A stretch of 64,000 nucleotides of DNA, taken from Ignavibacteriales bacterium (GTDB lineage Bacteria; Bacteroidota; Ignavibacteria; UBA10030). The position numbers and the translations under genes were made by a program. Location: NCBI GenBank assembly GCA_026390595.1, contig JAPLFQ010000021.1, forward strand, positions 1 to 64,000, given 5' to 3'. Positions 7,307 through 33,593 of this stretch are shown piece after piece. Below the pieces are notes generated by a model. It saw only the letters and a list, made by a program, of their open reading frames with translations. It did not search any database and had not been told where the DNA came from. Every line of letters starts with the position of its first letter. The stretch's first letter is position 1.

Positions 7307-7316
7307 AGGTCTCTGC

Positions 7317-13618: not shown

Positions 13619-14076
13619 GCTTTTTTCGAGATTGAGATTTCGTCACCTTGGACAACAACTCTGTATTCGTCGAGCGGGCGCGGCGGCGGGCCGGCGACGT
13701 TGCGTCCGTTCAGGTCATAGCGCCCGTTATGGCAGGCGCACCAGATCAACCCCATATCCTTCCGATACTGCACTGTGCAGTCCAGGTGTGTACACGTTGC
13801 TGAGAAAGCTCGAAACTCACCATTCGCGTTCCGGACGAGAATCACCGGCTTGTTACCAAATCGGACAATGGCGCCGCTGTCCTTCTCCATCGCGCTCACC
13901 TTGCCGGCTTTCACGCTGGTGACCTCAACCTCAGCCTGTTTGGGAGGATTCAGATATGCCAAAACAGGATAGAGTACCGCCCCAAGCCACGCAACAAGAC
14001 CACCACCCAGAATGTACTTCAGGAAGTTTCTCCTGTCACTCTCGGGCTGACCCGTGGGCGTTGATTCACTCTTCAT
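13615..14076 (-). CDS. Rieske [2Fe-2S] protein
   Basis: 153 residues. The N-terminus has a twin-arginine-like sequence ([14 protein letters not shown]) followed by a hydrophobic anchor, as in Rieske subunits. The two cluster-binding boxes are CTHLDC and CACHNGRYD, with the usual Cys and His ligands. [11 protein letters not shown] segment forms the Pro loop. The protein is the electron-extracting subunit of a quinol oxidase complex with the cytochrome b whose start codon overlaps its stop. The neighbouring 7-haem protein gene lies 58 bp upstream. Confidence 0.95.
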
Positions 14077-15714: not shown

Positions 15715-16581
15715 TTATTGGTAGGCAAAAAGCATAGCGTAAATGATCCATAGGACTATGCTGAATCCCACAGACAACGCCGTCCAGCCGAAGATGCGAA
15801 TCACCCGGATGACGATCGGCGGATAGGGCTCGACGAGGTTTTCATCAAGCTTCCCTGCCTTCACCAACTCTTCGTACTCAGCCGGCTTGTCTTCCTTCAG
15901 ATCTTCCACAGTCATTCGACCCGTGAAGACGACGATATCCATCGGAAATTTCTCCGGTCGCAGATGGGTATTGAAGAAGTGCACAGTGAATATGAAACCC
16001 ACCGCCAGCAGAGCTTCGTCGCTGTGGATTATTGTCGCCACATTCAAGAGCCATCCCGGGAAGACCCTTGTAAAGAGTTCTGGAAACCAGAGGGTGAGAC
16101 CGGTCGACCCGATGACAGCCATTCCCCAGAACACGGCGAAGTAATCGAATTTCTCCCAATACGTCCATCGGCCATATTCGGGCCTTGGACCCTTCCCGAG
16201 GAACCACTTGAAGTTCCCGATCAGATCCTGGAGGTCTTTCTTGTTGAAGAGCATGGAATCGGGTCCCAGAATCAATGCACGCCACGAACCGTAGATCTTG
16301 TTCTTCATCCTGACGATGTCGACGATGTGTGCGATGAAGATGCCGATCATCGCAACAGCAGCGAGACGGTGAATGTATCCTGCAGATTCGAAACCACCAA
16401 AGAGATGAGAGAGAAACGCTGCCCACCCTGTATAGGCAAATTTCAACGTCATGCCGGTCAGAGCGAGGCTAATAAAGCTCACAATCATGATGACATGGAG
16501 AACGCGGTTCAGCCTCTTAAACCGAAGGAACTGGTGCTCCCCTGCGGCCTGCGCAGTTTCAGGTCCGGTCGCCTTATCCAT
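15715..16581 (-). CDS. Di-haem membrane cytochrome b (HydC/FdnI-like)
   Basis: 288 residues with four to five transmembrane helices. His residues in hydrophobic helices (RVLHVIMIV, YIHRLAAVAMIGIFIAHIVDIV, IHSDEALLAVGFIFTVHFFNTHL) are the expected ligands of two b haems, as in the cytochrome b561/hydrogenase b-type family. It is clearly related to the C-terminal domain of the 13-haem fusion protein encoded two genes upstream (shared pattern: RPEYGRWTYWEK versus KPQFGRFSYIEK). I start at ATG 16581; the first 8 bp overlap the 3' end of the 19-haem gene. It likely forms a quinol-oxidising pair with that 19-haem protein. Confidence 0.9.
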   Translation of the reverse strand: MDKATGPETAQAAGEHQFLRFKRLNRVLHVIMIVSFISLALTGMTLKFAYTGWAAFLSHLFGGFESAGYIHRLAAVAMIGIFIAHIVDIVRMKNKIYGSWRALILGPDSMLFNKKDLQDLIGNFKWFLGKGPRPEYGRWTYWEKFDYFAVFWGMAVIGSTGLTLWFPELFTRVFPGWLLNVATIIHSDEALLAVGFIFTVHFFNTHLRPEKFPMDIVVFTGRMTVEDLKEDKPAEYEELVKAGKLDENLVEPYPPIVIRVIRIFGWTALSVGFSIVLWIIYAMLFAYQ

Positions 16582-18586
16582 TCTTGCCTTCTTCCCCTTG
16601 TTTCCGGGAGTTTTTTCGCCGTTCGCGCTGCATCCTGAGCGCCCGCGGCAGCCAGAGAAGCGTATGAACACCTCCCAGGATGAATGTAACGACAAGCAAC
16701 GACGTCATGCCCCAGAATGTCCAGAACAGAAACGGATACTTCTGAGGATCGTGATGTGTCGCATGCGTCAGATATCCAGCGAAACGACGGGTGGCTCCCG
16801 CGTGGCATTTCTGGCATGTCCCAACGACATTCTCGCGGCTCAGGTGAGAACGCGAATCTGAGATAGGCAGGATGTCGTGCGCACCATGGCAATCGTAGCA
16901 CTTCGCCGTCTTCGCGTACCCGAGCTGTGACACTTTTCCGTGGTAGGTATCGAAGTACGTTTTCGCGATCGCCTCGTGGCACCGGCCGCATTGGGTCATG
17001 ATCTCCAGCTTGAATCCCGTTGCGTCGACGCGCCGGATCGTATGGGCCGTATGGCAATCGCTGCATACCGGCAGCGGCTTGTCCGTCTTTCCGATCATTT
17101 GCACATGAACGCTCGATTCAAACTGCCCTTCAATCCCATGGTGACACCGGCCGCACGTCTTCGGCACATTGCGCGGGTTCACGCTTGAAAGCGTATCACT
17201 CTTGGGAAGCACGCTGTGCGGCGTATGACAGTTCGTGCACGTCGCAGTCACCGTCAGCCCGCTTTTCATCAACCCTTTGCCATGAATGCTCTCAGTGTAA
17301 TGCTCGATGATTTCATGCTGTGAGCCACCGTACCGGGCGGCCGCTTTCTGACCTTCGCGATGGCATCGCGCGCAGAGGAGCGGAACATTCGTCGGAAACG
17401 TGGCAGAATTCGGACTCAGCTTCCCGAGGACGTCATGCGTGCCGTGACACTCCTTGCACGTGGGACCGTTGGAGTCGTTTTTCGCAACAAGCTTTCCATG
17501 AGTACTGACCTGGAATTGCTGTCCCACTTCTGCGTGACACGCCGTGCAATCCACTTTCTTTGAGATCGTTTCGCACGGGCGGACGTGGGAAACACTTACT
17601 TCAGAGTGGCACTGACTGCAGGAGACTTTTGAATGACGCGAGTAGCCGAGCTGCTCACCCTTCACGAACAACGAGCGGCCATCCTTCGATGACTTCATGT
17701 TCTTGTTCTCGTGACAACGGAGACAATCCTTGTCCGCCATCCCCTGCGTATAGAACACCTTTCGGATCTTGTGCGGCTGATGGCAGTCGACGCAGGCAGG
17801 AAGCACGTTCGCCTGCTTCTCCCAGAGTTCTCCGCGTATCACCTTGCGGTGAACGATTTCGATTTGCCCATGGCACTTCGTGCACGTCTTGGAGATGTTG
17901 CCCCGGGCTATCGAGGACGCCGGGTCAGTATGCGGCAGAATCGAGTGCGGGGTATGACACGAAGCACAGTTAGGAGCGACTGTCAGTCCCTTCTGAAAAA
18001 GCGCCTGGCCATGAATACTCTCTGAAAAATTCTCAAGGATATGATCCTGGTGAATCGTCCGCTGCGCAGTGACGGGAGATCCTTCCTTGTGACACTTTCC
18101 ACACAAGAACGGCACTTGAAGTACAGAAATGGGTGACTTTGGGTCCTTCGCAGACAAGATGTTATGGTTACCATGACAATCCTTGCAGCGTGGAGCGAGC
18201 TGGTCCCCGCGGGAGACAGCCTTCCCATGCAGCGACTTGGCATGAAGAGCTTCTTCCGACGAATGGCACGTTCCGCACTTCACCGGCTTCAAGCTCCCCT
18301 CATGCGGAAGCTCCTTTCCCGACAGGTCTTCGTGACATGACACGCACGTGAGAGCAGCGTGGACAGATCCTCCGAACTTCTTTTCGTCTACGAACACCGA
18401 GATCTTCCTGCCAGCGCGTGTCCCTTCCAGCGACTTGTCATTGTGGCAGCCGAGACAGTCGGTATTTTCCTGCGCACGAACCGGAGTGATCCAGAAACTC
18501 AATGCCAGCACCAGCGAGGCCGCCGTCACCAGCATCCTGCGGGTTCTCACTGACTGGCTATTGCTCCGTGTCGTTCGCGAATTCAT
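16574..18586 (-). CDS. 19-haem c-type cytochrome with C-terminal membrane anchor
   Basis: 670 residues, with a signal peptide ending near ITPVRAQ. I count nineteen CXXCH motifs (from CLGCH near residue 44 to CQKCH near 600). The protein looks internally duplicated: the segment with ESIHGQALFQKGLTV, CASCHTPHSILP and CTKCH recurs later as ESIHGKGLMKSGLTV, CTNCHTPHSVLP and CGRCH. A C-terminal transmembrane helix (FWGMTSLLVVTFILGG) and a very basic tail anchor it in the inner membrane. It overlaps the cytochrome b gene by 8 bp, so the two proteins are probably made together as a two-subunit version of the fused protein encoded just upstream. Confidence 0.92.
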   Translation of the reverse strand: MNSRTTRSNSQSVRTRRMLVTAASLVLALSFWITPVRAQENTDCLGCHNDKSLEGTRAGRKISVFVDEKKFGGSVHAALTCVSCHEDLSGKELPHEGSLKPVKCGTCHSSEEALHAKSLHGKAVSRGDQLAPRCKDCHGNHNILSAKDPKSPISVLQVPFLCGKCHKEGSPVTAQRTIHQDHILENFSESIHGQALFQKGLTVAPNCASCHTPHSILPHTDPASSIARGNISKTCTKCHGQIEIVHRKVIRGELWEKQANVLPACVDCHQPHKIRKVFYTQGMADKDCLRCHENKNMKSSKDGRSLFVKGEQLGYSRHSKVSCSQCHSEVSVSHVRPCETISKKVDCTACHAEVGQQFQVSTHGKLVAKNDSNGPTCKECHGTHDVLGKLSPNSATFPTNVPLLCARCHREGQKAAARYGGSQHEIIEHYTESIHGKGLMKSGLTVTATCTNCHTPHSVLPKSDTLSSVNPRNVPKTCGRCHHGIEGQFESSVHVQMIGKTDKPLPVCSDCHTAHTIRRVDATGFKLEIMTQCGRCHEAIAKTYFDTYHGKVSQLGYAKTAKCYDCHGAHDILPISDSRSHLSRENVVGTCQKCHAGATRRFAGYLTHATHHDPQKYPFLFWTFWGMTSLLVVTFILGGVHTLLWLPRALRMQRERRKNSRKQGEEGKNG

Positions 18587-18590
18587 AGAC

Positions 18591-20783
18591 TTACTTTTTT
18601 ACCTCTGGCGGAGTTGTCCCTGCTTTCTCTGATTCAATTTCCTTCGCCAACGCCGCGTTCATTTCGGCGTGACGGATTTGTTCCAACTCTTTCGGATGCT
18701 CCTCTTCCATCTCTTCTTCCGTTATTGTTCCCTTCCAAAACGCGAGATTGATCGGATAGATATCGGGATTGAACATGACGAAGTAGAAATGCCAGACAAT
18801 AATTGACAGGGTCGCGAGCCAGGCTTCATAGTAGTGGACCGCCCGGGCGACGTCCCACCACGTCTTCGTAAGGATGCCGAGGAACGTGTTGTCAAACCAG
18901 AGGATGAACCCGGTCGCTGCCATCACGGCCGTGCCCCAGATCAGCGCCCAGTATTCGCTCTTCTCGATGTAGCTGAATCGTCCGAATTGCGGCTTCACCC
19001 GTGAGATGCCGAGATTGTACTTCAGGACGCCGATGGCGTCCGTCGCATCGTCGAGCGTCGGGAGCAGGTCGCGGATCAATTGCTTTCCACGGGGGACAAA
19101 GAAAACATAGTAGATATGGTACAAGCTCGCAGCCACGAGCACAACGGCGGCAACGCGGTGCAGGATGCCGCGCAGTTCGAACATCAAAGGACTCATGTTG
19201 CGCACGGGCGCGACCCACCATGCATCCGGATATTTAAGCGCGAAACCGGTCAGCACAAGCGTGATGAAACTGGTGAGGAGAGATGCGTGCTGGAGCCGCT
19301 CACTGAGCGACATGCGCAAATACAGCCGGTGTGCTACCGGCGGCCGCGGGATCAGTCCACGCCGGTACATCAACTGACGCTTCGATTTTCTCCTGAAGTC
19401 GAGCACATTGTGGAAGAACATGCCGCCCACGACGACGATGATCAGAACGATGTAGGTCGTCGAAACGTAGTAGAGCGCAGAGTCCTGCTTGTCGGTCGCG
19501 ATGATGTGGACTGCACCTTTAGTGAAGTTCTCGTTCGCTCCGGGATGGCACGATCCACACGTCTTGATAAGATTGGCTTTGCTAATACGGGAAGTTGGAT
19601 CGCTGGACGGTTTGATATCATGCACGCCATGACAGCTGGCGCAGTTCGCGACCTGAACAGACCCCGCAGTACCTGCAAGCCCGTGATAGCTGTCGGCGAA
19701 ACTCTTGAACCGATCGTTTGCGAGCCCGTACTTCTGGTTGAGTTTCACCGAACTGTGGCACGGCGAACAGACCTGACTCGAAACGTTCGCAGCCGCGACG
19801 GGAGAACGAGGATCGGTTGTTTTGAGAATGTTGTGTTCACCATGGCAGTCCGTACACACAGGCGCCGAGTTGACGCCATTCTTGACTGCCATTCCATGAA
19901 CGCTTGACTCAAACGCCTTTGCCACCTCGGCGTGGCACTGCGCACAGGTCTGAGGAATCCTCGCCTTGGCAACGCGTGAAGTCGGGTCCGATCCCTTCTT
20001 CATCTCATGGCTGCCGTGACAATCCACGCAGTTTGCAGCTTTTCCGTTTCCACGCTGAAGCGCTGAACCATGGACGCTCGCATCGTATGCGGAGATGAAA
20101 CCCGCCGTCGGAGACATCCTTGCCTTCACGTTCGGATCATCCAGGTGACAGGAAAGGCAGAGTTTGTCCTGGGCAATCTTGAGCTGCGTCGTGTCCTGAG
20201 CCGCTGTCACGTGCACGATGGGATTCTTGTGGCAATCGATGCACGTTGGAGCGCCCTGAATACCCAATGCCTGGGCATGAGCATGTGACGACCGCAAGAA
20301 GGTCTGCTTCACCTCATTGTGGCACGATCCGCAGAACTCAGTCAACTTCGCGGAGTGAAATTTCGAGTCGGGAGATTTTGGAGAGTGAACGTCGTGAGTA
20401 CCGTGGCAATCTGTGCATGAACCTGAACCGGCCCCCTTGCCCCCTGCAGTGAGATTCATTTGAGGATGGAACTGGTGCTTCAGCGGAGCATCCTTGTGGC
20501 ACGTGAGGCACTTAACCGGCTCTATTTTCTCTTTGTGCGGAACGTTCTGAGCATCGAATCCGGAGTGGCATGCAACACACACCAACTTGCGGTGCGTCGA
20601 CTTGTCGAGTGTGCCTCCGTTGACGAACAGAGAAACTTGCTTCCCTTTCCGCTCCATCGCCAACGATGAGTCGCTGTGACAAGCGAGACAGTCTTCTTTC
20701 GTCTGTGCCGCAGCACTCGTGGCTGCAAGGCCAATCACGACCAACCAGAAAAAAGCCCGAAGAATGTTGAAATGGGTTCCCAT
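18591..20783 (-). CDS. 13-haem cytochrome c fused to a membrane cytochrome b (CbcL-like architecture)
   Basis: About 730 residues. A signal peptide (FFWLVVIGLAATSAAAQ) is followed by thirteen CXXCH motifs in roughly the first 430 residues (CLACH to CGSCH). Then come a transmembrane helix and a cytochrome b561/HydC-like domain with membrane His residues (ILHRVAAVVLVAASLYHIYYVFF, AVHYYEAWLATLSIIVWHFYF). Fusion of a multihaem domain to a di-haem b domain is the architecture of Geobacter CbcL, a quinol oxidase for low-potential extracellular acceptors; CbcL has fewer c haems. I start at ATG 20783; an in-frame GTG at 20819 is possible. It is the first gene of the run, with a sigma-54 promoter 70 bp upstream. 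Confidence 0.9.
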   Translation of the reverse strand: MGTHFNILRAFFWLVVIGLAATSAAAQTKEDCLACHSDSSLAMERKGKQVSLFVNGGTLDKSTHRKLVCVACHSGFDAQNVPHKEKIEPVKCLTCHKDAPLKHQFHPQMNLTAGGKGAGSGSCTDCHGTHDVHSPKSPDSKFHSAKLTEFCGSCHNEVKQTFLRSSHAHAQALGIQGAPTCIDCHKNPIVHVTAAQDTTQLKIAQDKLCLSCHLDDPNVKARMSPTAGFISAYDASVHGSALQRGNGKAANCVDCHGSHEMKKGSDPTSRVAKARIPQTCAQCHAEVAKAFESSVHGMAVKNGVNSAPVCTDCHGEHNILKTTDPRSPVAAANVSSQVCSPCHSSVKLNQKYGLANDRFKSFADSYHGLAGTAGSVQVANCASCHGVHDIKPSSDPTSRISKANLIKTCGSCHPGANENFTKGAVHIIATDKQDSALYYVSTTYIVLIIVVVGGMFFHNVLDFRRKSKRQLMYRRGLIPRPPVAHRLYLRMSLSERLQHASLLTSFITLVLTGFALKYPDAWWVAPVRNMSPLMFELRGILHRVAAVVLVAASLYHIYYVFFVPRGKQLIRDLLPTLDDATDAIGVLKYNLGISRVKPQFGRFSYIEKSEYWALIWGTAVMAATGFILWFDNTFLGILTKTWWDVARAVHYYEAWLATLSIIVWHFYFVMFNPDIYPINLAFWKGTITEEEMEEEHPKELEQIRHAEMNAALAKEIESEKAGTTPPEVKK

Positions 20784-20852
20784 TTTCTTGGATCTTCTAA
20801 CTGCTGAATTTATCAACACTTGAGAAAAGCATATATATTCAACTGAAAACTC

Positions 20853-20868
20853 GCAACTCTCGTGCCAG
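20853..20868 (-). promoter_or_regulatory. Sigma-54 promoter of the multihaem operon
   Basis: On the minus strand the sequence reads CTGGCACGAGAGTTGC, matching the sigma-54 consensus YTGGCACG-N4-TTGC exactly with correct -24/-12 spacing. The predicted start of transcription is near 20841, about 58 bases before ATG 20783. An inverted repeat, a candidate activator site, lies about 100 bp upstream. Confidence 0.82.
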
Positions 20869-21495: not shown

Positions 21496-21855
21496 CTAGT
21501 CGTTCGCTTTTCCCTGGCAGAGCGCACAGCACGGCAGCGTCGGATCACGGAGCAGCGCCTCAGCCGATATCTCTCTGCCACATCGGACGCACAATCCGAA
21601 TTTTCCGCGCGCCATTCGTTCCAGCGCTTCCCTCAGCTGCTGAACTGAGCGTGAAGGTTTGTATGTCAGCAAGTGGGTCTGCAGGATCACCGAGAATACT
21701 TTGTCGGGGGACGGATCGGGTTGGGAAACAACGCTCCTCATGCGGAGCTCGTTCAAGACTTCGACGAGGGTTTGGTGGTAGTTCTGACGCAGGGTGAAAT
21801 CAAGCTGGCGAAGCATGGCAAGCTTGATCCGGCTCAAATCTGCAACGCTTGTCAC
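21496..21855 (-). CDS. DksA/TraR-type zinc-finger protein
   Basis: 119 residues if started at GTG 21855, which is preceded at 8 bp by a strong GGAGGG; longer in-frame starts (up to 21951) would overlap the upstream receiver gene. The C-terminus has the C4 zinc-finger pattern CVRCGREI...LPCCALCQG, and the segment LREALERMARGKFGLCVRCG is typical of DksA/TraR proteins, which bind RNA polymerase in the secondary channel. The N-terminal helical part (LRQLDFTLRQNYHQTLVEVLNELR) would be the coiled coil. It probably modulates transcription; the target genes are unknown. Confidence 0.85.
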   Translation of the reverse strand: MTSVADLSRIKLAMLRQLDFTLRQNYHQTLVEVLNELRMRSVVSQPDPSPDKVFSVILQTHLLTYKPSRSVQQLREALERMARGKFGLCVRCGREISAEALLRDPTLPCCALCQGKAND

Positions 21856-21916
21856 GGTGCCTGCCCTCCTTCCAGAGAGTTGAGGAGGCAACAGCGAAAA
21901 GCGCGAATCCGTCCAC

Positions 21917-22357
21917 TCAGGACTGTCCGTCGAGAAGCTTGTGAACGGCATCCGCTACGGCGTTGACATCAAACGGCTTGTAGAAAACAAAATCCGCAAG
22001 GTCCTTGATCGTTTCTTCAATCTCCGGGGAAAGCTGACGGTACACACGAAGAAGAACGACAGGAATCTTGAGCTTGCTCGTCCGAAGAACGGTGACCTCT
22101 TTGAGAATGTCGGAAGGGAACGAGAAGAGATCCACCAGCAGCAATGCAGGGGATGCTTTGCCGAGGGCGGTCTTCAGATTGTCAAGCTGCGTCTCGCATG
22201 CAATCTCATACTTGTCTTCCAGCAAGAGTGAAAGGCTCTTCGCCAGCGCGGCGTCAGGACTGAAAACCAGAACCTTCTTCTGTGCTTCACGCTGCAAGAG
22301 GCCCTCCCGAAAGGTACTCTCCGCTGGAATTGTTCTCATGGCGACCATCGATCTCAC
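21917..22357 (-). CDS. Receiver-domain protein
   Basis: Up to 146 residues; the ATG at 22348 is an equally good start. The core is a single response-regulator-like domain: KKVLVFSPDAALAKSLSLLL, the presumed acceptor Asp in LLLVDLFSF, and the conserved Lys in DFVFYKPFD. The first acidic pair is reduced to one Asp (SPD), so phosphorylation may be weak. There is no output domain. It is followed on the same strand by the DksA-like gene, and the pair could be one regulatory unit. Confidence 0.75.
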   Translation of the reverse strand: MRSMVAMRTIPAESTFREGLLQREAQKKVLVFSPDAALAKSLSLLLEDKYEIACETQLDNLKTALGKASPALLLVDLFSFPSDILKEVTVLRTSKLKIPVVLLRVYRQLSPEIEETIKDLADFVFYKPFDVNAVADAVHKLLDGQS

Positions 22358-22661: not shown

Positions 22662-24920
22662 TTACTTCAACAATGTCATTTTCTTCGTCGCAGTGAATCC
22701 TTCTGCCTGCAGATGGTAGAAGTATGCACCGCTGGCGACTGAGCGACCATCATCGGTCTTGCCGTTCCAGGTAACACGGTAGTTGCCTGCCGACATCGTC
22801 AGATTGACGACGGTGGCAACCACGTCTCCGGACAGACCATAGATAACGATCTTCACAGGCGTCTGCTTCGGCACCGAGAATGCGATTTCGGTAGACGGAT
22901 TGAACGGGTTCGGATAGTTCTGATTCAGCGCGAACACTGTCGGAATTCCGCTCCCGGTCTCGACGCTGGTGACAACACTGACAGCGGCGTATCCGCTTTC
23001 GTTGCCGGCCTGGTCGATTGCAGAGATCTTGTAGTAGTACGCAACGCCGCTCTGGGAAACTGCGTCCCGATACAGAGGCGTTGTGACCTTCGCCACCGGA
23101 GCTGTGCCGGCCGGATCGAAGTTCGGTGTCGTTCCGCGATACACTGCATATGCTGCGATATCGCTCTCCTCGTTCGCCTTCCACTGGAGGTTGACCACGT
23201 TGTTCAGGAACGAGGCGGTCGTCCCTGCCGGAGATGCCGGGGCGATGTTGTCCACGGAGTATCCGCTGTCGGGCTGAGTTGCGAATGCCACGGTATTCGC
23301 TGCCGTATATCCGGCGATGTAGAATGTCGTCCAGCGCTGGCCGGAAGTCTTCGTTGAGTCAAAGATCGTCGGAGCCACGTACGAGTACTGCTGCATTGCA
23401 GACGCAGGGACTGAGCCGACATACGTCCAAACGGTTCCAGCCATAAGGGCCGATCCACCGACCGCTGTCGTTTGCATCAGCTCCGTGAAGTTTCCGACCT
23501 TCTTGATTGAATTCAGGCTCGGGAGCATCGGGTCTTTTCTGAAGACGCCGTACGTGACAACCTTGTTATAGCTGTACATCTCAGCCGGGAAGGCGGTCCA
23601 AACAACCTGGACCTTCTTGCCGTTGTCAACCGGCACGTCCTTGATCGAGGAGATTGAGGATGCTCCGGCGCCGAGTTTCACCTGCTCCAGTGAAGAAGTG
23701 AGCAGTCCCTTTGCGTAGTTGTAGTTGTGAACTCCGCCGCTGCCGTCGTTACGCACGAACTGCAGATTGTAGGCCGCCGCGCGCTCGACAACTGAAAGCT
23801 TGCGCTTCGACGTCACCGGCATCTTTGAGTTGTTCTGCCACGTGATTGTGTCGGTAAAGAGAATTGGCGTGCCGGTTGGATTGATCGTGCTGATGATCGT
23901 ATCCCGTTTCGGCAGTGCTGCATACAATGCTGCCAGCAACTTGTCTGTCTTCCCCTTCGTCAATTCCACAAACTCGATCGAGGCCTCGCCATGGCATTCT
24001 TCGCATCCGGTAGGATTGAGAATGGTCTTGGTGACGCCGCCGACGGTGTTATCATATGCAACTCTGAACGTGTGCCCGCCCATTTTCGTCATCATGGTAT
24101 CGGGCTTGGTGAAGTTTGATGCCGCGGAGGCCAGGAATGACGGCGAACTGGCCATATGACACACCGCGCAACGTTCTTTGATATCGCTATGGGAGGAATT
24201 CTCATACATATAGCCCGGCAGCTCCCATCCACCCCACGTGCCGACCGCAGCGCTGTTCTGCTGGACTGATCCGGATGGGGCCAAGAGGTATGCGTTCGCA
24301 ACGTCCATGGTGAACGGAGCGGTGTTGGTTCCCATCAGCATTGTTCCCTGATGTGCAGTGTGTAAGCCGCGGGTGCTCATGCGTGTGATGTGGCAACCGA
24401 TACAGACATCGCCGACGGTCTTCGCACGAAGCTGTTTCTCATTTGATCCGTCATGCGGATCATGGCAGGTGGCGCAACCGACTGGCATCGGGTCATTGTA
24501 CACCAGCAGACCTGTCGTTGCCGGGACCGGCTGGGCTTTTCCACCGATAACTTCATTGACATATCCTTGTGACGTATGGCAGCGTGCGCATACGGGGCGG
24601 GATGTGTATTGAGGCTGACGCTCGGTTTCGGTTGTGGAAATTGCGTGAGCGGATGCGCTCCACGCATAACCGATGCCGTGCCGATCGCTCGAGAAGTGAC
24701 ACGGTGCGCAAACTTCAGACGACAGCGTCTCATCAAGCTTGTTGTTGCCCGCGACCGGCATGCCTGCGACGTGCTGTCCGGCTGGTCCGTGGCAATTTTC
24801 GCACTGGATGCCTGTTCGTGCCATCGATTTGGGGTACTTCGTCACCAACGTGTCGAACACGCCAGGTGCATTCGTCGGAACCGTTGTGAAATTCTCCGCC
24901 TTCGCTACATCATCCATCAT
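22662..24920 (-). CDS. Type IX-secreted multihaem cytochrome, copy 1, C-terminal part (frameshifted)
   Basis: About 752 residues, in a different frame from the N-terminal part that ends at 24910. Seven CXXCH sites are visible (CENCH, CAPCH, CARCH, CATCH, CIGCH, CAVCH, CEECH), then a fibronectin-III-like domain (about residues 570-660) and a C-terminal type IX secretion signal with FALNQNYPNPFNPST and final KKMTLLK. It has no signal peptide of its own, so alone it could not be exported. It opens with MMDDVAKAENF, which continues the sequence of the upstream part after a one-base step forward. An intact relative would be a cell-surface cytochrome, possibly a terminal reductase. Confidence 0.85.
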   Translation of the reverse strand: MMDDVAKAENFTTVPTNAPGVFDTLVTKYPKSMARTGIQCENCHGPAGQHVAGMPVAGNNKLDETLSSEVCAPCHFSSDRHGIGYAWSASAHAISTTETERQPQYTSRPVCARCHTSQGYVNEVIGGKAQPVPATTGLLVYNDPMPVGCATCHDPHDGSNEKQLRAKTVGDVCIGCHITRMSTRGLHTAHQGTMLMGTNTAPFTMDVANAYLLAPSGSVQQNSAAVGTWGGWELPGYMYENSSHSDIKERCAVCHMASSPSFLASAASNFTKPDTMMTKMGGHTFRVAYDNTVGGVTKTILNPTGCEECHGEASIEFVELTKGKTDKLLAALYAALPKRDTIISTINPTGTPILFTDTITWQNNSKMPVTSKRKLSVVERAAAYNLQFVRNDGSGGVHNYNYAKGLLTSSLEQVKLGAGASSISSIKDVPVDNGKKVQVVWTAFPAEMYSYNKVVTYGVFRKDPMLPSLNSIKKVGNFTELMQTTAVGGSALMAGTVWTYVGSVPASAMQQYSYVAPTIFDSTKTSGQRWTTFYIAGYTAANTVAFATQPDSGYSVDNIAPASPAGTTASFLNNVVNLQWKANEESDIAAYAVYRGTTPNFDPAGTAPVAKVTTPLYRDAVSQSGVAYYYKISAIDQAGNESGYAAVSVVTSVETGSGIPTVFALNQNYPNPFNPSTEIAFSVPKQTPVKIVIYGLSGDVVATVVNLTMSAGNYRVTWNGKTDDGRSVASGAYFYHLQAEGFTATKKMTLLK

Positions 24921-25566
24921 TGCCGCTCGTTGTCAATCCATCATACCCAACGGAGTGACACGAGAAGCAGCTGAAGGAAAAGTGTCCACCTGTTTCTGTG
25001 ACTTTCCGCTTCACGGCTGTAGCATGATTCGACTTCGACCATGTTGTGAAATTAGACGGATTGACAAGATGGCATGCGCAACCGGTGGGAACGGCTTGCG
25101 TGGACTGCATCGAGATTCCAGCGCCGATGAACTTGGCGGCGACGATTTTCGTTTGCACCGAAGCGGCAGCACCGAGAGGTGTTGTTGCCGTCATCGTCAC
25201 AGTCCAATCGCCAACCGTGTCAGCAACGAAATACACCACTTTACCGTTGAGTCCAGTTGCCGTGTCCTGAATCGGCTTTGAGACGCCATACGGGCTTGTC
25301 AACGTCCACGTTGCGCTGTTCACAACAACCGTCGTGTCGCTGTATTTGTTTCCCAATCCGGAGAGGGCCTTCGGAGCCAACACAACGCGGCTCCCGACTC
25401 CGACCGACTTGAGGCCTGTCGTTGCCTGGTTCTTGTTTGCTGACTTGAACCTGTCAGGCACACCTACGATATCGATCTTGGCAGTCTGGGTCTGCGCAAG
25501 AACCGGCATGGCCAGAACGAAGATCAGAACAACCAACACTGTAGCGGTGAGTAGAAATCTCTTCAT
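24910..25566 (-). CDS. Type IX-secreted multihaem cytochrome, copy 1, N-terminal part (frameshifted)
   Basis: 218 residues from ATG 25566, preceded by GGGAGG. A signal peptide (MKRFLLTATVLVVLIFVLAMPVLAQ) leads to an Ig-like beta domain (about residues 30-150). Then comes the start of a c554-like haem domain: GCACHLVNPSNF, an unusual C-x-C-H, and SCFSCHSVGYDG. The frame closes with TGA right after SGNDG. The next frame begins 11 bases before that point with sequence that reads on naturally. Losing two T from a GGA-TTT-GAT context would explain the break (inference). Confidence 0.85.
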   Translation of the reverse strand: MKRFLLTATVLVVLIFVLAMPVLAQTQTAKIDIVGVPDRFKSANKNQATTGLKSVGVGSRVVLAPKALSGLGNKYSDTTVVVNSATWTLTSPYGVSKPIQDTATGLNGKVVYFVADTVGDWTVTMTATTPLGAAASVQTKIVAAKFIGAGISMQSTQAVPTGCACHLVNPSNFTTWSKSNHATAVKRKVTETGGHFSFSCFSCHSVGYDGLTTSGNDG

Positions 25567-25625
25567 ACAACCTCCCTCTTGGGTATTCGATTTGAGGTGC
25601 GACACAAAATTCCTTTGTCACTAAG

Positions 25626-25656
25626 CGTTGCCCCGCCCGGCTCGGGCGGGGCAACG
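25626..25656. terminator. Perfect GC-rich hairpin between the tandem cytochromes
   Basis: CGTTGCCCCGCCCG pairs with CGGGCGGGGCAACG around three bases, 14 bp perfect. It lies just after the stop of copy 2 and before copy 1 on the minus strand. No T run follows, so it may reduce read-through or stabilise the upstream mRNA rather than fully terminate. Confidence 0.6.
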
Positions 25657-25665
25657 GTGATCAGA

Positions 25666-27918
25666 TTACTTCAGCAATGTCATTTTCTTCGTCGCGGTGA
25701 ATCCTTCCGCCTGCAGATGGTAGAAGTAGACACCGCTTGCCACGGCACGACCGTCGTCGGTTTTGCCATTCCACGTGACGCGGTAGTTACCGGCTGACAT
25801 CGTCTGGTTCACAACCGTCGCAACAACCTCACCGGACAAGCCATAGATCACGACCTTCACCGCAGTCTGTTTCGGCACCGAGAACGCGATTTCGGTAGAC
25901 GGGTTGAACGGATTCGGATAGTTCTGATTCAGTGCAAACTCCGTCGGAACGCTCTTGCCGTTTTCCACATCGGTCAAGACGCTGACACTTGCATAGCCGC
26001 TTTCGTTGCCGGCGACATCAAGTGCAGAGACTTTGTAATAGTAGGTCACGCCGCTCTGGGAAACCGGATCCTGATAGAGAGGTGTCCGGACCTTCGCCAC
26101 CGGCGTGGTGCCTGCCGGGTTGAAGGTCGCTGTCGTTCCACGATAGATTGCGTACTGGTACACATCACTCTCAACATTCGCTGTCCACTTCAATGTGACA
26201 GCATTTTGTTTGAACGCTGCGTTCAGACCTGAAGGGACCATCGGTGCGAGGTTATCCACCGAGTATCCGCTGTCGGGCTGGCTGGAATACATGACCTGGT
26301 TGTCTTTCGTGTAGCCGGCGACGTAGAACACCGTCCAACGCTGACCAGAGGTCTTCGTAGAATCGAACAACGTCGGAGCAAGGAATGAGTACTGCGCCAT
26401 CCCCGATGCTGGAACTGCGCCTACGTACGACCAGACGCTTCCGCCCATGACAACCTGGCCGCCCTGGCTCGTCGTGCTCATCATTTCCGTGAAGCTGCCA
26501 ACCTTCTTAATAGAGTTCAGACTGGGCAGGATAGGATCTTTTCTCCACACGCCGTAGTTGATTACCTGGCCAAAGCTATACATCTCAGCCGGGAATGCGG
26601 TCCACACAACCTGGACCTTTTTGCCGTTGTCAACCGGTACGTCCTTGATCGAGGAGATTGAGGATGCTCCGGCGCCGAGTTTCACCTGCTCGAGCGAGGA
26701 GGTGAGAAGGCCCTTCGTGTAATTGTAGTTGTGGACGCCACCGCTGCCATCGTTCCGAACGAACTGCAGATTGTAGGCAGCTGCGCGCTCGACAACTGAA
26801 AGCTTGCGCTTCGACGTCACCGGCAGCTTTGAGTTGTTCTGCCACGTGATTGTGTCGGTAAAGAGAATCGGCGTGCCGGTGGGGTTGATATCGCTGACGA
26901 TCGTATCCCGCTTCGGCAGTGCTGCATACAATGCCGCCAGCAACTTGTCCGTCTTCCCCTTTGTCAATTCCACAAACTCGATCGAGGCTTTACCGTGGCA
27001 CTCCTCGCAACCTGTGGGATTGAGGATCGTCGTGGTGACACCGCCGACGGTATTATCATATGCAACTCTGAACGTGTGCCCGCCCATTTTCGTCATCATA
27101 GTATCGGGCTTGGTGAAGTTTGATGCCGCGGAGGCCAGGAATGATGGTGAGCTGGCCATATGACACACCGCGCAACGCTCTTTGATGTCGCTGTGAGAGG
27201 AATTCTCATACATATAACCCGGGAGTTCCCATCCACCCCATGTGCCGACCGCAGCGTCGTTCTGCTGCACTGAACCGGAAGGAGCCTTAAGGTACGCGTT
27301 TGCCACGTCCATCGTGAACGGAGCAGTGTTCGTGCCCATCAACATCGTTCCCTGATGTGCGGTGTGCAGGCCGCGGCTGCTCATGCGTGTGATGTGGCAA
27401 CCGATGCAAACATCGCCGACGGTCTTCGCACGGAGCTGTTTCTCATTTGATCCGTCATGCGGATCATGGCAGGTGGCGCAGCCGACTGGCATCGGGTCAT
27501 TGTACACCAGCAGACCTGTCGTTGCCGGGACCGGCTGGGCTTTTCCACCGATAACTTCATTGACATATCCTTGTGACGTATGGCAGCGTGCGCATACGGG
27601 GCGGGACGTGTATTGAGGCTGACGCTCGGTTTCGGTTGTGGAAATCGCGTGAGCAGATGCGCTCCACGCATAACCGATACCATGCCGGTCGCTCGAGAAG
27701 TGACACGGTGCGCAAACTTCAGACGACAACGTCTCATCAAGCTTGTTGTTCCCGGCTTGCGGGAAGGCCGCGATGTGCTGTCCGGCTGGTCCGTGGCAAT
27801 TTTCGCACTGGATGCCTGTTCGTGCCATCGATTTGGGGTACTTCGTCACCAACGTGTCGAACACGCCAGGTGCATTCGTCGGAACCGTTGTGAAATTCTC
27901 CGCCTTCGCTACATCGTG
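25666..27918 (-). CDS. Type IX-secreted multihaem cytochrome, copy 2, C-terminal part (frameshifted)
   Basis: About 750 residues in the homologous region, beginning HDVAKAENF. Seven CXXCH sites, a fibronectin-III-like domain and a type IX secretion signal (FALNQNYPNPFNPST, ending KKMTLLK) match copy 1 almost residue for residue. The open frame continues upstream to 28125, but that part is only the other frame of the N-terminal coding region. There is no start codon close to the homologous start, so this part depends on the frame break being crossed or repaired. Confidence 0.85.
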   Translation of the reverse strand, partial: HDVAKAENFTTVPTNAPGVFDTLVTKYPKSMARTGIQCENCHGPAGQHIAAFPQAGNNKLDETLSSEVCAPCHFSSDRHGIGYAWSASAHAISTTETERQPQYTSRPVCARCHTSQGYVNEVIGGKAQPVPATTGLLVYNDPMPVGCATCHDPHDGSNEKQLRAKTVGDVCIGCHITRMSSRGLHTAHQGTMLMGTNTAPFTMDVANAYLKAPSGSVQQNDAAVGTWGGWELPGYMYENSSHSDIKERCAVCHMASSPSFLASAASNFTKPDTMMTKMGGHTFRVAYDNTVGGVTTTILNPTGCEECHGKASIEFVELTKGKTDKLLAALYAALPKRDTIVSDINPTGTPILFTDTITWQNNSKLPVTSKRKLSVVERAAAYNLQFVRNDGSGGVHNYNYTKGLLTSSLEQVKLGAGASSISSIKDVPVDNGKKVQVVWTAFPAEMYSFGQVINYGVWRKDPILPSLNSIKKVGSFTEMMSTTSQGGQVVMGGSVWSYVGAVPASGMAQYSFLAPTLFDSTKTSGQRWTVFYVAGYTKDNQVMYSSQPDSGYSVDNLAPMVPSGLNAAFKQNAVTLKWTANVESDVYQYAIYRGTTATFNPAGTTPVAKVRTPLYQDPVSQSGVTYYYKVSALDVAGNESGYASVSVLTDVENGKSVPTEFALNQNYPNPFNPSTEIAFSVPKQTAVKVVIYGLSGEVVATVVNQTMSAGNYRVTWNGKTDDGRAVASGVYFYHLQAEGFTATKKMTLLK

Positions 27919-28484
27919 ACTTTGCGCTTCACGGCTGTAGCATGATTCGTCTTTGACCATGAGGTGAATTGACTGGGGTTCACGAGGTGGCACGCACAAC
28001 CCATCGGGACGTTTTGGTTCGCTGTCATCGAGATTCCGGCGCCGATGAACTTGGCGGCGACGATTTTCGTTTGCACCGAAGCGGCAGCACCGAGAGGTGT
28101 TGTTGCCGTCATCGTCACAGTCCAATCGCCAACCGTGTCAGCAACGAAATACACTACTTTACCGTTGAGGCCCGCTGCAGTGTCCTGAATCGGCTTCGAG
28201 ACGCCATACGGGCTTGTCAACGTCCACGTCGCGCTGTTCACAACAACCAATGTGTCCGTGTATTTGTTTCCCAATCCGGAGAGGGCCTTCGGAGCCAACA
28301 CAACGCGGCTCCCGACTCCGACTGACTTGAGGCCTGTCGTTGCCTGGTTCTTGTTTGCTGACTTGAACCTGTCAGGCACACCTACGATATCGATCTTGGC
28401 AGTCTGAGTCTGTGCAAGGACGGGCACAGCCAGAACGAAGATCAAGACGACGAGGATGGATAAGCCAAGTAGAAATTTCTTCAT
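27909..28484 (-). CDS. Type IX-secreted multihaem cytochrome, copy 2, N-terminal part (frameshifted, haem site deleted)
   Basis: 191 residues from ATG 28484, preceded by GGGAGG. The signal peptide (MKKFLLGLSILVVLIFVLAVPVLAQ) and Ig-like domain are almost identical to copy 1, as is the C-x-C-H site (MGCACHLVNPSQF). The frame ends at KRKVTM-stop. Compared with copy 1, 86 bases are missing at this point, removing the CFSCH haem site and shifting the frame. A sigma-54 promoter lies about 125 bases upstream. Confidence 0.85.
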   Translation of the reverse strand: MKKFLLGLSILVVLIFVLAVPVLAQTQTAKIDIVGVPDRFKSANKNQATTGLKSVGVGSRVVLAPKALSGLGNKYTDTLVVVNSATWTLTSPYGVSKPIQDTAAGLNGKVVYFVADTVGDWTVTMTATTPLGAAASVQTKIVAAKFIGAGISMTANQNVPMGCACHLVNPSQFTSWSKTNHATAVKRKVTM

Positions 28485-28619
28485 GGTACCTCCCTGTGAA
28501 GTATTTTGGAGCTTCGTTGTATTGAGGGGTCTTTCGTTCAACATAACCGTTACATCGTCAATTTCTGTGATTCAGCTCAGCGAGAGCCGGCAAGTCAGTC
28601 ATTCGTATGTTTGGGAACG

Positions 28620-28635
28620 GCAACTCGTGTGCCAA
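28620..28635 (-). promoter_or_regulatory. Sigma-54 promoter of the secreted cytochromes
   Basis: On the minus strand TTGGCACACGAGTTGC fits the sigma-54 consensus (TGGCAC, five bases, TTGC). The predicted start of transcription is near 28608, giving a leader of about 124 bases to ATG 28484. Copy 1 has no such promoter and may be read from this one. Confidence 0.78.
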
Positions 28636-29160: not shown

Positions 29161-29610
29161 CTATTCCTTGACCCACTCCTGGGTTGCCTGACGCAGTTTC
29201 TCCATTGCCTGTATGACTGATTCCCCCGCGTCCGATGGGAGAAGGTTGATGATGTCTTCGTGCACAGATACGTACATTGCTTTGAGCTGCGAGCGAGAAG
29301 CGATACCAACTTGGGTCAAACCGATGTCGACGATCCTCCGGTCATTGCCTCCTGCCTCCTTTTTCACCATTCCTTTCTTGAGGAGCCCGTCAATGATGCG
29401 CGTAATGCGGCTGCTGGAAAGACTCATCCTCTTCGCCAAAGCCCCGGCCGAGAGCATTTCGTCCTCTTGCAACGAGCGGAGGAGCTTGAATTCAGCCACC
29501 GTAAGATTGAGCTTTTCCGCGGTGCGTTCGATTTTCAGTTGGCAGTTCTCCAGCAGCTCGTAAGTCAGGTCTGCCATGTGTTCTGCCAGTTCGTTCTTTT
29601 GGACGGCCAT
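29161..29610 (-). CDS. MarR-family transcriptional regulator
   Basis: 149 residues, typical of MarR regulators. The winged helix-turn-helix is visible: LTVAEFKLLRSLQEDEMLSAGALAKRM, then SLSSSRITRIIDGLLKKGMVKK as recognition helix and wing, followed by NDRRIVDIGLTQVG, the classic D-R-R wing. Flanking helices at both ends form the dimer interface. ATG 29610 has AAGAGG upstream; the longer open frame is not supported. The ligand and targets are unknown; it lies between the cytochrome genes and the sigma-54 regulators. Confidence 0.92.
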   Translation of the reverse strand: MAVQKNELAEHMADLTYELLENCQLKIERTAEKLNLTVAEFKLLRSLQEDEMLSAGALAKRMSLSSSRITRIIDGLLKKGMVKKEAGGNDRRIVDIGLTQVGIASRSQLKAMYVSVHEDIINLLPSDAGESVIQAMEKLRQATQEWVKE

Positions 29611-29925
29611 AATTCCTCTTTGGGGACATGGTGGATATTCGCCGGAAGATTCTCGGGCCGACAATCACGGGCTCATACGAATGACGCAAACCGCTCGGGC
29701 ATAGCCATCGTTCCTGCCTGCAGGCGGATCCGCAAGATGGTCTGGCAAAAAAAACGCCCACAGGCAGCAAGGCTCTCATGCGAATGCAAAGCACACCTGT
29801 GGGCAGATTCTTCTTATTGATGTTTCCAAGGGAATTGGCTCTCCTCCCGCGAACGGTATTGCGGGAAAGAGAACACGATTCGCTCTGTAGATCACTCGTT
29901 TCTGAGAGGATTTGAAACCGGGAAC
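29611..29925. other. Intergenic region with MarR promoter and a terminator
   Basis: This 315-bp gap holds the minus-strand terminator described separately and must hold the promoter of the MarR gene. Nothing else recognisable was seen. Confidence 0.4.
29746..29804 (-). terminator. Terminator after the small membrane protein gene
   Basis: GCCCACAGG and CCTGTGGGC form a 9-bp stem with a long (31-base) loop, followed on the minus strand by a run of T (nine A on the plus strand, 29746-29754). It would end transcripts from the fis-like/small membrane protein unit. Confidence 0.65.
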
Positions 29926-30208: not shown

Positions 30209-30457
30209 CTAGTTCATCGCGGGATGCATTTCGGCCGCGTGTTCGGCCTCGTGACCTTCTTCGGTATCTTCAATCGAAAGTTCGCGCAGCTTCCTGTACA
30301 ACGATGAGAGACTGATTCCTAACAGCTTTGCAACTTTGCGTTTGTCATTGCCGTTGACGCGCAGCGCATCGATGATCAAGGCACGTTCATATGTGCGGAC
30401 GGATTCTTTCAGATTACCCGCAACTAACCCCTCTTGTTGCATTCTAGCTCGCTCCAT
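30209..30457 (-). CDS. Stand-alone Fis-type (HTH_8) DNA-binding protein
   Basis: 82 residues. The helix-turn-helix segment (about residues 22-60) reads ERALIIDALRVNGNDKRKVAKLLGISLSSLYRKLREL. The last part is very like the C-terminal DNA-binding domain of the NtrC-family activator encoded next door (KEATAQALGVSLSSLYRKMEEL). The protein lacks receiver and AAA+ domains and ends in a Glu/His-rich tail (EEGHEAEHAAEMH). A strong AGGAGG precedes the ATG, and a sigma-54 promoter lies about 70-90 bases upstream. It may compete with or assist the activator at shared sites (inference). Confidence 0.88.
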   Translation of the reverse strand: MERARMQQEGLVAGNLKESVRTYERALIIDALRVNGNDKRKVAKLLGISLSSLYRKLRELSIEDTEEGHEAEHAAEMHPAMN

Positions 30458-30528: not shown

Positions 30529-30544
30529 TGCAAGGAACGTGCCA
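30529..30544 (-). promoter_or_regulatory. Sigma-54 promoter of the fis-like gene
   Basis: On the minus strand TGGCACGTTCCTTGCA matches the sigma-54 consensus (TGGCAC, five bases, TTGCA). The predicted start of transcription is near 30518, 61 bases before the fis-like ATG at 30457. The -12 region overlaps TGCGAAAATGCA (30521-30532, plus strand), which resembles the dyad at 30576-30589. Confidence 0.8.
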
Positions 30545-30742: not shown

Positions 30743-32110
30743 TCATCGTGTCGGAATTTCGAGTTCCTCCATTTTGCGATAGAGCGATGACAAGCTGACG
30801 CCAAGCGCCTGCGCCGTCGCCTCTTTGTTTCTGTCGTGCTGCGTCAGGACCTGTTCAATGTACGTCCGCTCGAATGCCTTCACCGCATCCCGCAGAGTCT
30901 GATGCCCTCCTGCCGGCATCGCCGCGTGCTGCGAGGTCATCATCCGGAAGTACTCGGGCAGATGCTCAAGACCGATAAATTCCTTGTCACAGAAAATGAC
31001 CGCGCGCTCGAGCACGTTCTCCAGTTCGCGGACCTCGCCCTTCCACTGGTACTGCATCATCGCGCTCATTGCCTCGTTGGAGATCCCCTGGATCGGCCGC
31101 CCCATGTGCTTTCTGAAGGCTTCAAGGAAATGCTGGCACAGGAGCGGGATGTCTTCTTTTCTTTCGGCAAGCGAAGGGAGATCGATCTCCACCACATTCA
31201 ACCGGTAGAACAAATCTTCCCTGAATTTTCCGTTCTCCACTTCCTGGCGAAGGTCCCTGTTTGTCGCCGCGATGATTCGCACATCGGTCGTCATCGGATC
31301 AGTGTACCCGACAGGGATGACCTCCTTCTGTTCAATGGCCCGTAGGAGTTTCACCTGCAGGTGTAACGGGATTTCGCTCACCTCGTCGAGAAACACGCTT
31401 CCACCATCGGCTACTTTGAAGAGTCCCTCTTTGTCCGTCGTCGCTCCCGTGAACGACCCCTTCTTGTGACCGAAGAGTTCGCTCTCGAACAGCGTCTCAA
31501 CGATTGCGCCGCAGTTGATAGCAACGAACCGTTTCGTTTTCCGCCTGCTGTTGTAGTGGAGTGCGCGGGCGACGAGCTCCTTCCCCGTCCCGCTCTTTCC
31601 CGTGATGAGCACCGTCCCGTCGCTTTCGGCCACGGTCCGGATGATCTGGAACACGTTCTTCATGCTCTGGCTCTGACCGATGATCTGGTCGAAATCGTAC
31701 GTCCGGTTAATCTCCTGCCGAAGAAGCGAGTTTTCCAGCGACAGCGCCCTGTGATCAAGCAGCTTGCGGACCCGGTGCAGAATGTCGTCGAAGTCGATCG
31801 GTTTAAGAACGTAGTCGTACGCTCCCTTTCTCAGTGCTGCCACCGCTGTTTCGATCGACGCGAACGCCGTGATCATGATGACAAACGTCTGCGGCGTCCG
31901 CTTGGTGATGTGTTCCAGCAGCTCCATGCCGCGCATCTCGGGCATTTCGATATCGGAGATGACCACATCGAACGGCCGTGCCTCCTGTTTCGCGAGCGCC
32001 TCCTTTCCGTTCGGAGCTTCTTCGACCTGGTATCCTTCCTTCTTCAGAACAAACCCAAGCGATTCGCGGATAATCTGTTCATCATCAACAACAAGTATGC
32101 GCTCTGTCAT
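30743..32110 (-). CDS. NtrC-family sigma-54-dependent response regulator
   Basis: 455 residues in the classic order receiver, AAA+ and Fis-type helix-turn-helix. The receiver has DDE at 9-11, phospho-acceptor Asp53 (VVISDIEMPEM) and Lys103 (VLKPID). The AAA+ domain (about residues 140-370) has Walker A GKSGTGKE, the sigma-54 contact loop as GSFTGA (GAFTGA variant) and Walker B VFLDEVSEI. The C-terminus (NKEATAQALGVSLSSLYRK) binds DNA. It starts 8 bp after the kinase gene, forming a two-component operon, and is the obvious candidate to drive the three sigma-54 promoters in this window (inference). Confidence 0.96.
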   Translation of the reverse strand: MTERILVVDDEQIIRESLGFVLKKEGYQVEEAPNGKEALAKQEARPFDVVISDIEMPEMRGMELLEHITKRTPQTFVIMITAFASIETAVAALRKGAYDYVLKPIDFDDILHRVRKLLDHRALSLENSLLRQEINRTYDFDQIIGQSQSMKNVFQIIRTVAESDGTVLITGKSGTGKELVARALHYNSRRKTKRFVAINCGAIVETLFESELFGHKKGSFTGATTDKEGLFKVADGGSVFLDEVSEIPLHLQVKLLRAIEQKEVIPVGYTDPMTTDVRIIAATNRDLRQEVENGKFREDLFYRLNVVEIDLPSLAERKEDIPLLCQHFLEAFRKHMGRPIQGISNEAMSAMMQYQWKGEVRELENVLERAVIFCDKEFIGLEHLPEYFRMMTSQHAAMPAGGHQTLRDAVKAFERTYIEQVLTQHDRNKEATAQALGVSLSSLYRKMEELEIPTR

Positions 32111-32118
32111 CAGCCCTC

Positions 32119-33528
32119 TTACTCCTCTTTGATCGGTAACTTGATCTTGAACGTACTCCCTTTGCCAAGTTCACTTTCCACTTCGATGTCGCCATTGAAA
32201 CTCTCGACAATCCCGTAGCTGACCCAGAGCCCGAGTCCCGTCCCCTGCCCCACCGTCTTGGTGGTAAAGAACGGCTCGAAGATTTTTTCGCGGTCTCCGG
32301 GATCAATTCCCCGTCCCGTGTCTTTCACCAGCACTTCCGCATGATCCTCATGTGCGCGCGACTGTATCCAGATCGATCCCGGTTTCCCCTCGAGTGAATC
32401 AACCGCGTTCATCAGGATGTTGATGAACACCTGCGCGAGCTGGTCTGGGACAACAGGCAAACTCGGCAGGTCGTCTGCCAGTTCCAGCGTAAACGCGATG
32501 TCTTTCACTTTCTTCCCGTACTGCACGATGTTCAGCGCTTCACGGACAACCTTGTTCAGGTCCGTGGGCTTGATGACGTACGAAGACGGACGCGAGAAAT
32601 CGACAAGGTCGCGGATAATGCGTGCGATCCGGTTGATCTGGTCTTTGATCAGACCAAGCTTGTCCTTTGCGAACTCATCGGCTGTCGTCCGCTGGATCAC
32701 CTGGACCAGCGAAGAGATCGAGGTCAGCGGATTCCCGACCTCGTGCGCGATACCGGCTGCCAGAGTTCCGATGCTTTCCATTTTTTGAGAACGGAACAAC
32801 TGCTGTTCCAATATCCGCTGTTCGGTGATGTCCCTGTGGGCTCCCATGAAGCCTACGATATGGTCGTTGCCATCGACGATCGGCGAAATAACGAGTTCCG
32901 TGTGGAATGGGCTCCCGTCTTTTCGACGATTCTCAAGTTCGCCAACCCATACCTTCCTTTGCACAATGTATTCCCAGACTTTCTTCCAGAATTCCGTCCC
33001 GTGCCTGCCACTGTTCAGGATCCTGGGGTTCCTGCCGATGAGTTCTTCCTTCGAATATCCGCTTGCTGTCTCGAATGCGGGATTGACGTAGACCATCTTC
33101 CCGCTGGCATCGGTGATCTGAATCGGATTGACGGTATGCTGAATGACGTTCGAGAACCTGAGATAATCGAGTTCCCGCTTCTTCTGCTCGGTGATATCTT
33201 TCGCAATAAGGACGGAGTAGAATCTCTCGGCCGAGTAGAGTCTCCGAAGGTCGATCTGGACATCCAATACCGCCTTGTCGGATCTGACAAATTTCGTCTC
33301 GAGCGATTGATCGCCGTAATTTGTCTTCAGGATACTCATGAGCACCCGGCGCTGCTCGGCAGGGAGCAGGAGATCCAACGAGCTATGCAGGAGCTCGTTC
33401 GACGGGTATCCCGTCCCTTCGGCGGCGGCCGTGTTATGGTCCACGATCTTCTGCTCAGCGTCCACGATGAGGATCATCTCGGGCAGAAGGTCGAAAACCC
33501 GGCCATATTTCGAATAATGGACTGTCAT
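32119..33528 (-). CDS. PAS-PAS sensor histidine kinase
   Basis: 469 residues from ATG 33528 (an in-frame TTG lies six codons upstream). Two PAS domains occupy about residues 5-115 and 125-240; the second has the [21 protein letters not shown] signature and the PAC segment [12 protein letters not shown]. The dimerisation box is [16 protein letters not shown] (His near 260). The ATPase domain has the N box ([11 protein letters not shown]) and G boxes [10 protein letters not shown] and [15 protein letters not shown]. No transmembrane helix, so it senses a cytoplasmic signal, possibly redox or a small molecule through PAS. It pairs with the NtrC-type regulator just downstream. Confidence 0.95.
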
Positions 33529-33593
33529 GAGTGTCTTTGGCCTCAAAGGTACTCCAACTTCGCCTCATTGGCAAGGAAAGAGATAGTGGTGAC

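Follow-up and report, generated by a model that had tools for sequence, protein, structure and literature searches.

OcwA-like nine-haem cytochrome genes with type IX secretion tails in an Ignavibacteriales genome

The first 64,000 nucleotides (nt) of contig JAPLFQ010000021.1 of an Ignavibacteriales bacterium (assembly GCA_026390595.1; hereafter the window) carry two tandem copies of one multihaem cytochrome gene on the minus strand, at 22662-25605 (copy A) and 25666-28544 (copy B). The copies lie about 3 kb apart and are 83-88% identical over 300-nt reference stretches. In each of them a signal segment is followed by a beta-rich N-terminal part, a nine-haem core, a part resembling fibronectin type III (FN3) domains and a type A tail of the type IX secretion system (T9SS). 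A first-pass annotation of this DNA had rightly placed tandem multihaem cytochromes here. It had also described these parts as lying in one polypeptide, which is not the case: each window copy consists of two open reading frames (ORFs) in different frames, and only relatives are open over their full length.

The export signals named in that annotation are well borne out. Both copies begin with a hydrophobic segment ending in LAQ, a predicted signal peptide, and both end in a tail with the motif NYPNPFNPST, which the NCBIfam model for T9SS type A tails (TIGR04183) scores at 32.5 and 38 bits, above its cut-off of 23 bits. Pfam PF18962 gives the tails 22.9 and 26 bits, under its cut-off of 27. 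The domains between these ends fared less well. The FN3 domain survives as an FN3-like part for which the family profile, with its matches to 3mpc and 1k85, is the sole source. The Ig-like N-terminus is weak, as a Pfam search of both N-terminal ORFs gave no match and the relatives show PKD matches that all fall below the cut-off. The description of the haem domain as c554-like was too narrow, given its nine sites and its closest solved relative.

This relative came from a profile of 16 open orthologues (A1) searched against the PDB. The best matches were 6i5b (E 4.7e-22) and 6qvm (E 1.4e-21), followed by octahaem nitrite reductases, NrfA and MccA. We take 6i5b (PDB name 'Uncharacterized protein') to be OcwA of Thermincola potens, a nine-haem reductase of the cell surface, and 6qvm (PDB name 'Multiheme cytochrome cf') is presumably OmhA of Carboxydothermus ferrireducens. 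Chain positions in 6i5b differ from the published residue numbers of OcwA by the same offset, 29, at both of its His-His pairs, which supports the identity of 6i5b as OcwA. In the available text of PMC6703420, OcwA is a nonahaem surface reductase made of c554 plus NrfA-like parts, with six bis-His haems, one His/Met haem and His-His pairs over the open haems 2 and 5.

The nine haem sites are present in all 56 members of the family that we assembled, collinear and in an order that agrees with the aligned segments of 6i5b (whose site 2 is unaligned). As candidate ligands, H189, H275, H379, H410, H506, H621 and M479 occur in every one of 44 family members; further His candidates are H317 (43/44) and H467 (27/44). 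These invariant candidates fit the six bis-His haems, the one His/Met haem and the two open haems of OcwA, as far as an alignment can tell. For each His-His pair of OcwA one His has a counterpart (H306 and, probably, H410), the pair itself not being kept.

The family is widespread. A core profile of 18 rows (A2), searched at E <= 1e-15 in 395 genomes drawn from the phylum, had matches in 66 of them. All 30 A2 loci listed hold a core ORF with the tail motif; besides the window itself, they include seven orthologues that were already known. The 56-member set comprises 19 orthologues from the genomes of the first orthologue search, 22 from the A2 search, three from a contig scan and 12 paralogues. 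Left out were three proteins with 8, 8 and 6 motifs (L031c, L034c, L228b) and one that is not alignable to the core (L029x); two further loci (L229, L230) had no ORF with six or more haem motifs. The tail motif is found in 54 of the 56 members. The two without it, L056a and L056b (the latter cut by a contig end), are tandem neighbours (L056:9869-14365); DTDGDG-type repeats close to both C-termini suggest a different sorting route for this pair. A profile search of genome contigs returned mostly T9SS tails; of the best 80 of 561 loci, the core relatives used were L056 and L058 only, and L058 ('Ignavibacteriae bacterium') groups with the same-class rows of the family tree. The search of viral contigs gave no match over the haem core.

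Some relatives extend this picture. The same-genus genome G004 has, besides a tandem pair, a third tandem paralogue (L026:4738-6918) with CPCH at site 1, which found no full-length match in the window's genome. Just upstream of another orthologue lies a 961-amino-acid multihaem protein with seven CXXCH (L029:599-3484), whose C-terminus matches the T9SS tail part and whose haem part is unalignable to the family. A Neomarinimicrobiota genome encodes a protein of 902 amino acids with 16 CXXCH, in which the motif series occurs twice, and a T9SS-like tail (L072:7577-10285).

The first haem site deserves separate attention. It reads CACH in both window copies, and among the 56 relatives it is CX2CH in 43, CX1CH in nine and CX3CH in four. 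Sites 2-8 are CX2CH in all 56, and site 9 is CX2CH in 53, CX4CH in two and CX1CH in one. Hence, because of the variants at site 1, the canonical CXXCH does not hold at every haem site of this family. One member (L227:521-2719) has CX1CH at both terminal sites, 1 and 9. Being present in independent assemblies, CX1CH is no sequencing error. A careful tree of 44 rows requires at least two changes for CX1CH and at least two for CX3CH. A quick tree of 56 rows, with a long branch at L039c, requires at least four and three, respectively, and, unlike the careful tree, sets two CX2CH rows inside the genus clade.

Does CXCH bind haem? The haem-attachment machinery tested by others is known to accept CXXCH or longer spacings, and we did not find CXCH as a haem-attachment motif in the open-licence literature. 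Both observations favour the view that CXCH at site 1 carries no haem and that such proteins are octahaem, which we regard as a serious minority possibility. Against it, the two Cys and the His of site 1, like the distal H189, are kept in 44 of 44 members, including all six CXCH rows, and CXCH arose more than once. One may propose a large Gram-negative family of nine-haem surface reductases, exported by the T9SS, that repeatedly evolved CXCH or CXXXCH attachment of the first haem, with a maturation that accepts a motif one residue shorter than CXXCH. This proposal is tentative and we would give it slightly less than an even chance. A lyase dedicated to CXCH, in the form of the CcmF encoded near the copies, was considered and rejected: a CcmF relative is also found near orthologues with CXXCH at site 1 (L041, L042, L044), and a second CcmF is encoded elsewhere in the window's genome. 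With the CXCH site, the range of motifs that cytochrome c maturation accepts can be tested directly; haem counts based on CXXCH alone overlook this site.

The frame breaks raise the question of whether the window copies are real pseudogenes, the system being active only in relatives. Copy A breaks near 24911, its N-terminal ORF ending at 24910 and its C-terminal ORF running from 24920 in another frame; all nine haem sites are present, split over the two frames. In copy B the frame changes near 27909-27918, family sequence starting only near 27918 in its C-terminal ORF, and 86 nt present in copy A are missing, among them haem site 2. Broken frames in both copies and a lost haem motif are what decay would leave. 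Yet, both breaks coincide exactly with the start of the longest identical run between the copies (141 nt). Furthermore, the ratio of non-synonymous to synonymous substitution rates (dN/dS) is 0.136 between copies A and B (214.8 synonymous and 127.2 non-synonymous changes), so that selection between the two copies is, by this measure, purifying, and 0.06-0.12 between the window copies and those of G004. The search for intact orthologues proposed in the first-pass annotation succeeded: open full-length relatives of 916-1047 amino acids exist, including the tandem pair of G004 (80% and 73% identity to copy A). Four other genomes of the genus have orthologues of 64-80% identity, and in a fifth the orthologue is cut by the contig end. 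Because of these open relatives, of the identical run that begins at both breaks and of the low dN/dS, an assembly error at a near-identical repeat is likelier than decay, and we consider real pseudogenes unlikely. A common assembler has 141 as its largest default k-mer size, too, which is suggestive only.

Export by the type IX route requires its machinery, and the same genome encodes outer-membrane core components of this system: SprA (1116 bits), PorU (985 bits) and, adjoining it, PorV (334 bits). It also has 133 matches to the type A tail at E <= 0.001. Besides the two copies, the window encodes, at 35276-41395 on the minus strand, a 2039-amino-acid protein that combines a T9SS tail with nine fn3 stretches. 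Placement of the cytochromes on the cell surface by the T9SS, as the first-pass annotation had proposed, stands as the best reading of a predicted export, because the tail scores above the cut-off, 54 of 56 relatives are tailed and SprA, PorU and PorV are in the genome. Its contrast with lipoprotein anchoring was overstated, since the same cluster, with its barrel-like protein and 14-haem cytochrome, also encodes a lipoprotein-like cytochrome. We found no T9SS-borne multihaem cytochrome in the open-licence literature, a search that did not cover the spelling 'multihaem' and left most subscription papers outside. To our knowledge, the Gram-negative outer-surface cytochromes described so far are lipoproteins or cargo of type II secretion.

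This cluster lies downstream of the copies in gene order, from a receiver-like protein to a CcmF/NrfE-like lyase (Table 1). It is kept down to CcmF in G004 and G002 and largely kept in G001, G003 and G005, over the stretches covered there. The 13-haem gene occurs near an orthologue also in four genomes of another family, in two of which its 19-haem partner is 62-63% identical. At the far end, a 14-haem cytochrome lies between a barrel-like protein and a lipoprotein-like cytochrome (TIGR01904, 44.8 bits for a cut-off of 27); together the three form a candidate porin-cytochrome conduit. The terminal Phe of the barrel is kept in three of three complete homologues; it has no NCBIfam match, and a PDB search yielded nothing of use. 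A conduit in such a host would not be new, because the available text of PMC7399161 reports OmbB-like porin-cytochrome complexes in Ignavibacteria.

Table 1. Cytochrome copies, downstream electron-transfer genes and upstream regulatory features in the window
Feature	Position	Strand	Remark
CcmF/NrfE-like haem lyase	3899..6151	-	second copy elsewhere in genome
ORF encoding, in its downstream part, a lipobox-like multihaem protein, candidate outer-face cytochrome	6221..7693	-	7 CXXCH, 2 CX4CH
Candidate conduit cytochrome with 14 haems and a signal segment	7317..8555	-	
Predicted outer-membrane beta-barrel, candidate conduit porin	8566..9885	-	sub-cut-off Pfam match, signal segment, terminal Phe
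Tetrahaem c554-type cytochrome	10494..11027	-	
11-haem cytochrome with C-terminal membrane segment	11070..12773	-	
Cytochrome b	12539..13618	-	
Rieske protein	13615..14076	-	
NapC/NrfH-like multihaem protein	14135..15625	-	
Cytochrome b561-type membrane protein	15715..16695	-	
19-haem cytochrome with C-terminal membrane segment	16574..18586	-	
13-haem cytochrome fused to cytochrome b561-type membrane part	18591..20819	-	
Sigma-54-type promoter match	20853..20867	-	48 nt upstream of 13-haem/b561 gene
DksA/TraR-type zinc-finger protein	21496..21951	-	weak
Receiver-domain-like protein	21917..22357	-	between cytochrome gene and 13-haem gene; weak family matches; conserved position
Copy A C-terminal ORF	22662..24920	-	haem sites 3-9, FN3-like part, T9SS type A tail
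Copy A N-terminal ORF	24910..25605	-	signal segment, beta-rich part, sites 1 (CACH) and 2 (CFSCH)
Copy B C-terminal ORF	25666..28125	-	haem sites 3-9, FN3-like part, T9SS tail
Copy B N-terminal ORF	27909..28544	-	signal segment, beta-rich part, haem site 1 (CACH)
Sigma-54-type promoter match	28620..28634	-	90 nt upstream of copy B ORF
MarR-family regulator	29161..29664	-	also upstream of orthologues in three genus genomes
Small Fis-like helix-turn-helix ORF	30209..30457	-	between NtrC-type regulator and MarR gene
Sigma-54-type promoter match	30530..30544	-	upstream of small Fis-like ORF
NtrC-type sigma-54 response regulator	30743..32110	-	
PAS histidine kinase	32119..33546	-	

Just upstream of the cytochrome copies lie the genes of an NtrC-type regulator and a PAS kinase, and sigma-54-type promoter motifs are enriched. 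The window has three occurrences of TGGCAC-N5-TTGC for 0.21 expected; with one mismatch allowed it has five, for 4.92 by chance. The site of the 13-haem gene recurs in four of five other genus genomes (L026, L027, L028 and L038; not L029). Among family genes, TGGCAY-N5-TTGC is found upstream of 10 of 49, for 0.42 expected from the same loci; none is close upstream of the core genes in L026-L029. In L026, L027 and L028 a sigma-54 match lies about 900 nt upstream of the MarR gene. An Rfam search gave no match.

Our preferred reading, to which we give a probability of about 0.68, is that these genes represent T9SS-exported nonahaem terminal reductases of the OcwA type, fed through the conduit and under sigma-54 control. 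The product of an intact gene would be an OcwA-like c-type cytochrome with nine haems. Sec would export it, haem would be attached in the periplasm, presumably also at CXCH, and the T9SS would then move it through the outer membrane, to be fixed to the cell surface or released. The 13-haem/b561, NapC-like and Rieske/cytochrome b modules would take electrons from quinol; these would traverse the periplasm on the 19- and 14-haem cytochromes and exit by the barrel-cytochrome conduit. The surface protein may then act as terminal reductase for external acceptors, a candidate role that the first-pass annotation had found attractive and to which 6i5b and 6qvm, as the core's best solved relatives, point. 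The neighbouring NtrC-type two-component pair might control transcription through sigma-54.

Several observations fit this reading poorly. The reading frame is broken in both window copies. One His of the first His-His pair of OcwA corresponds to H306, which is found in only 33 of 44 members, and the correspondence of the second pair to H410 (44/44) is inferred, HMMER placing that pair elsewhere for 6i5b. The structure model of the copy A C-terminal ORF, made with four other rows, is uninformative, with a mean predicted local distance difference test (pLDDT) score of 32, as is the model of the predicted barrel (pLDDT 31), whose assignment rests on a sub-cut-off match (PF13505, E 2.7e-4). The models for the T9SS motor protein GldM/PorM (TIGR03517, PF12081), which bear on surface placement, found nothing in the genome; no control genome exceeded their cut-off either.

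Alternatively, the proteins might be exported enzymes for soluble acceptors, such as nitrite, hydroxylamine or sulfur oxyanions, rather than reductases of minerals or electrodes. The A1 profile also matches octahaem nitrite reductases, NrfA and MccA, the cluster encodes an NrfE-like lyase, and OcwA itself reduces nitrite and hydroxylamine according to the available text of PMC6703420. But the best solved relatives are of the OcwA/OmhA type and the cluster holds a candidate conduit, needless for soluble periplasmic reduction, so that we find this alternative improbable. That the tail puts the protein in an extracellular matrix or filament for electron conduction instead of terminal reduction, as the beta-rich and FN3-type parts flanking the core and the tandem and triple copies might suggest, is very improbable, no filament-forming cytochrome family having been matched in Pfam, NCBIfam or PDB profile searches.

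If surface terminal reduction by these proteins is correct, T9SS-borne nonahaem reductases would be a third route for outer-surface cytochromes of Gram-negatives and would connect a fold of Gram-positives, that of OcwA, with diderm cells. Two things here merit further work: the OcwA-like family with T9SS tails and the recurrence of CXCH at site 1. Gram-negative relatives of OcwA as such were already known, because the available text of PMC7829351, in which the term 'type IX' is absent, places OcwA, as the one protein from a monoderm, in a subclade otherwise made up of nonahaems of Gram-negative bacteria.

How do these proteins compare with known systems? With OcwA they have in common nine collinear haem sites, a candidate ligand pattern of six His plus one Met, and the motif DGSxGVHN on the C-terminal side of the core. 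Yet, OcwA comes from a Gram-positive, and the window proteins add the beta-rich N-terminal part, the FN3-like part and the T9SS tail, the spacing at haem site 1 being variable in their family. OmhA has a related haem core but eleven haems (table in the available text of PMC7829351), a Gram-positive host and no T9SS. Like other type A cargo of the type IX system (TIGR04183), the window proteins have a signal segment, a C-terminal tail above the cut-off and SprA, PorU and PorV encoded in the same genome; they differ from it in that the cargo is a multihaem cytochrome. As in the porin-cytochrome conduits of Geobacter and Ignavibacteria described in the available text of PMC7399161, barrel-like, multihaem and lipoprotein-like CX4CH/CXXCH proteins are encoded side by side, whereas the barrel of the window differs from theirs in lacking an NCBIfam or PDB match.

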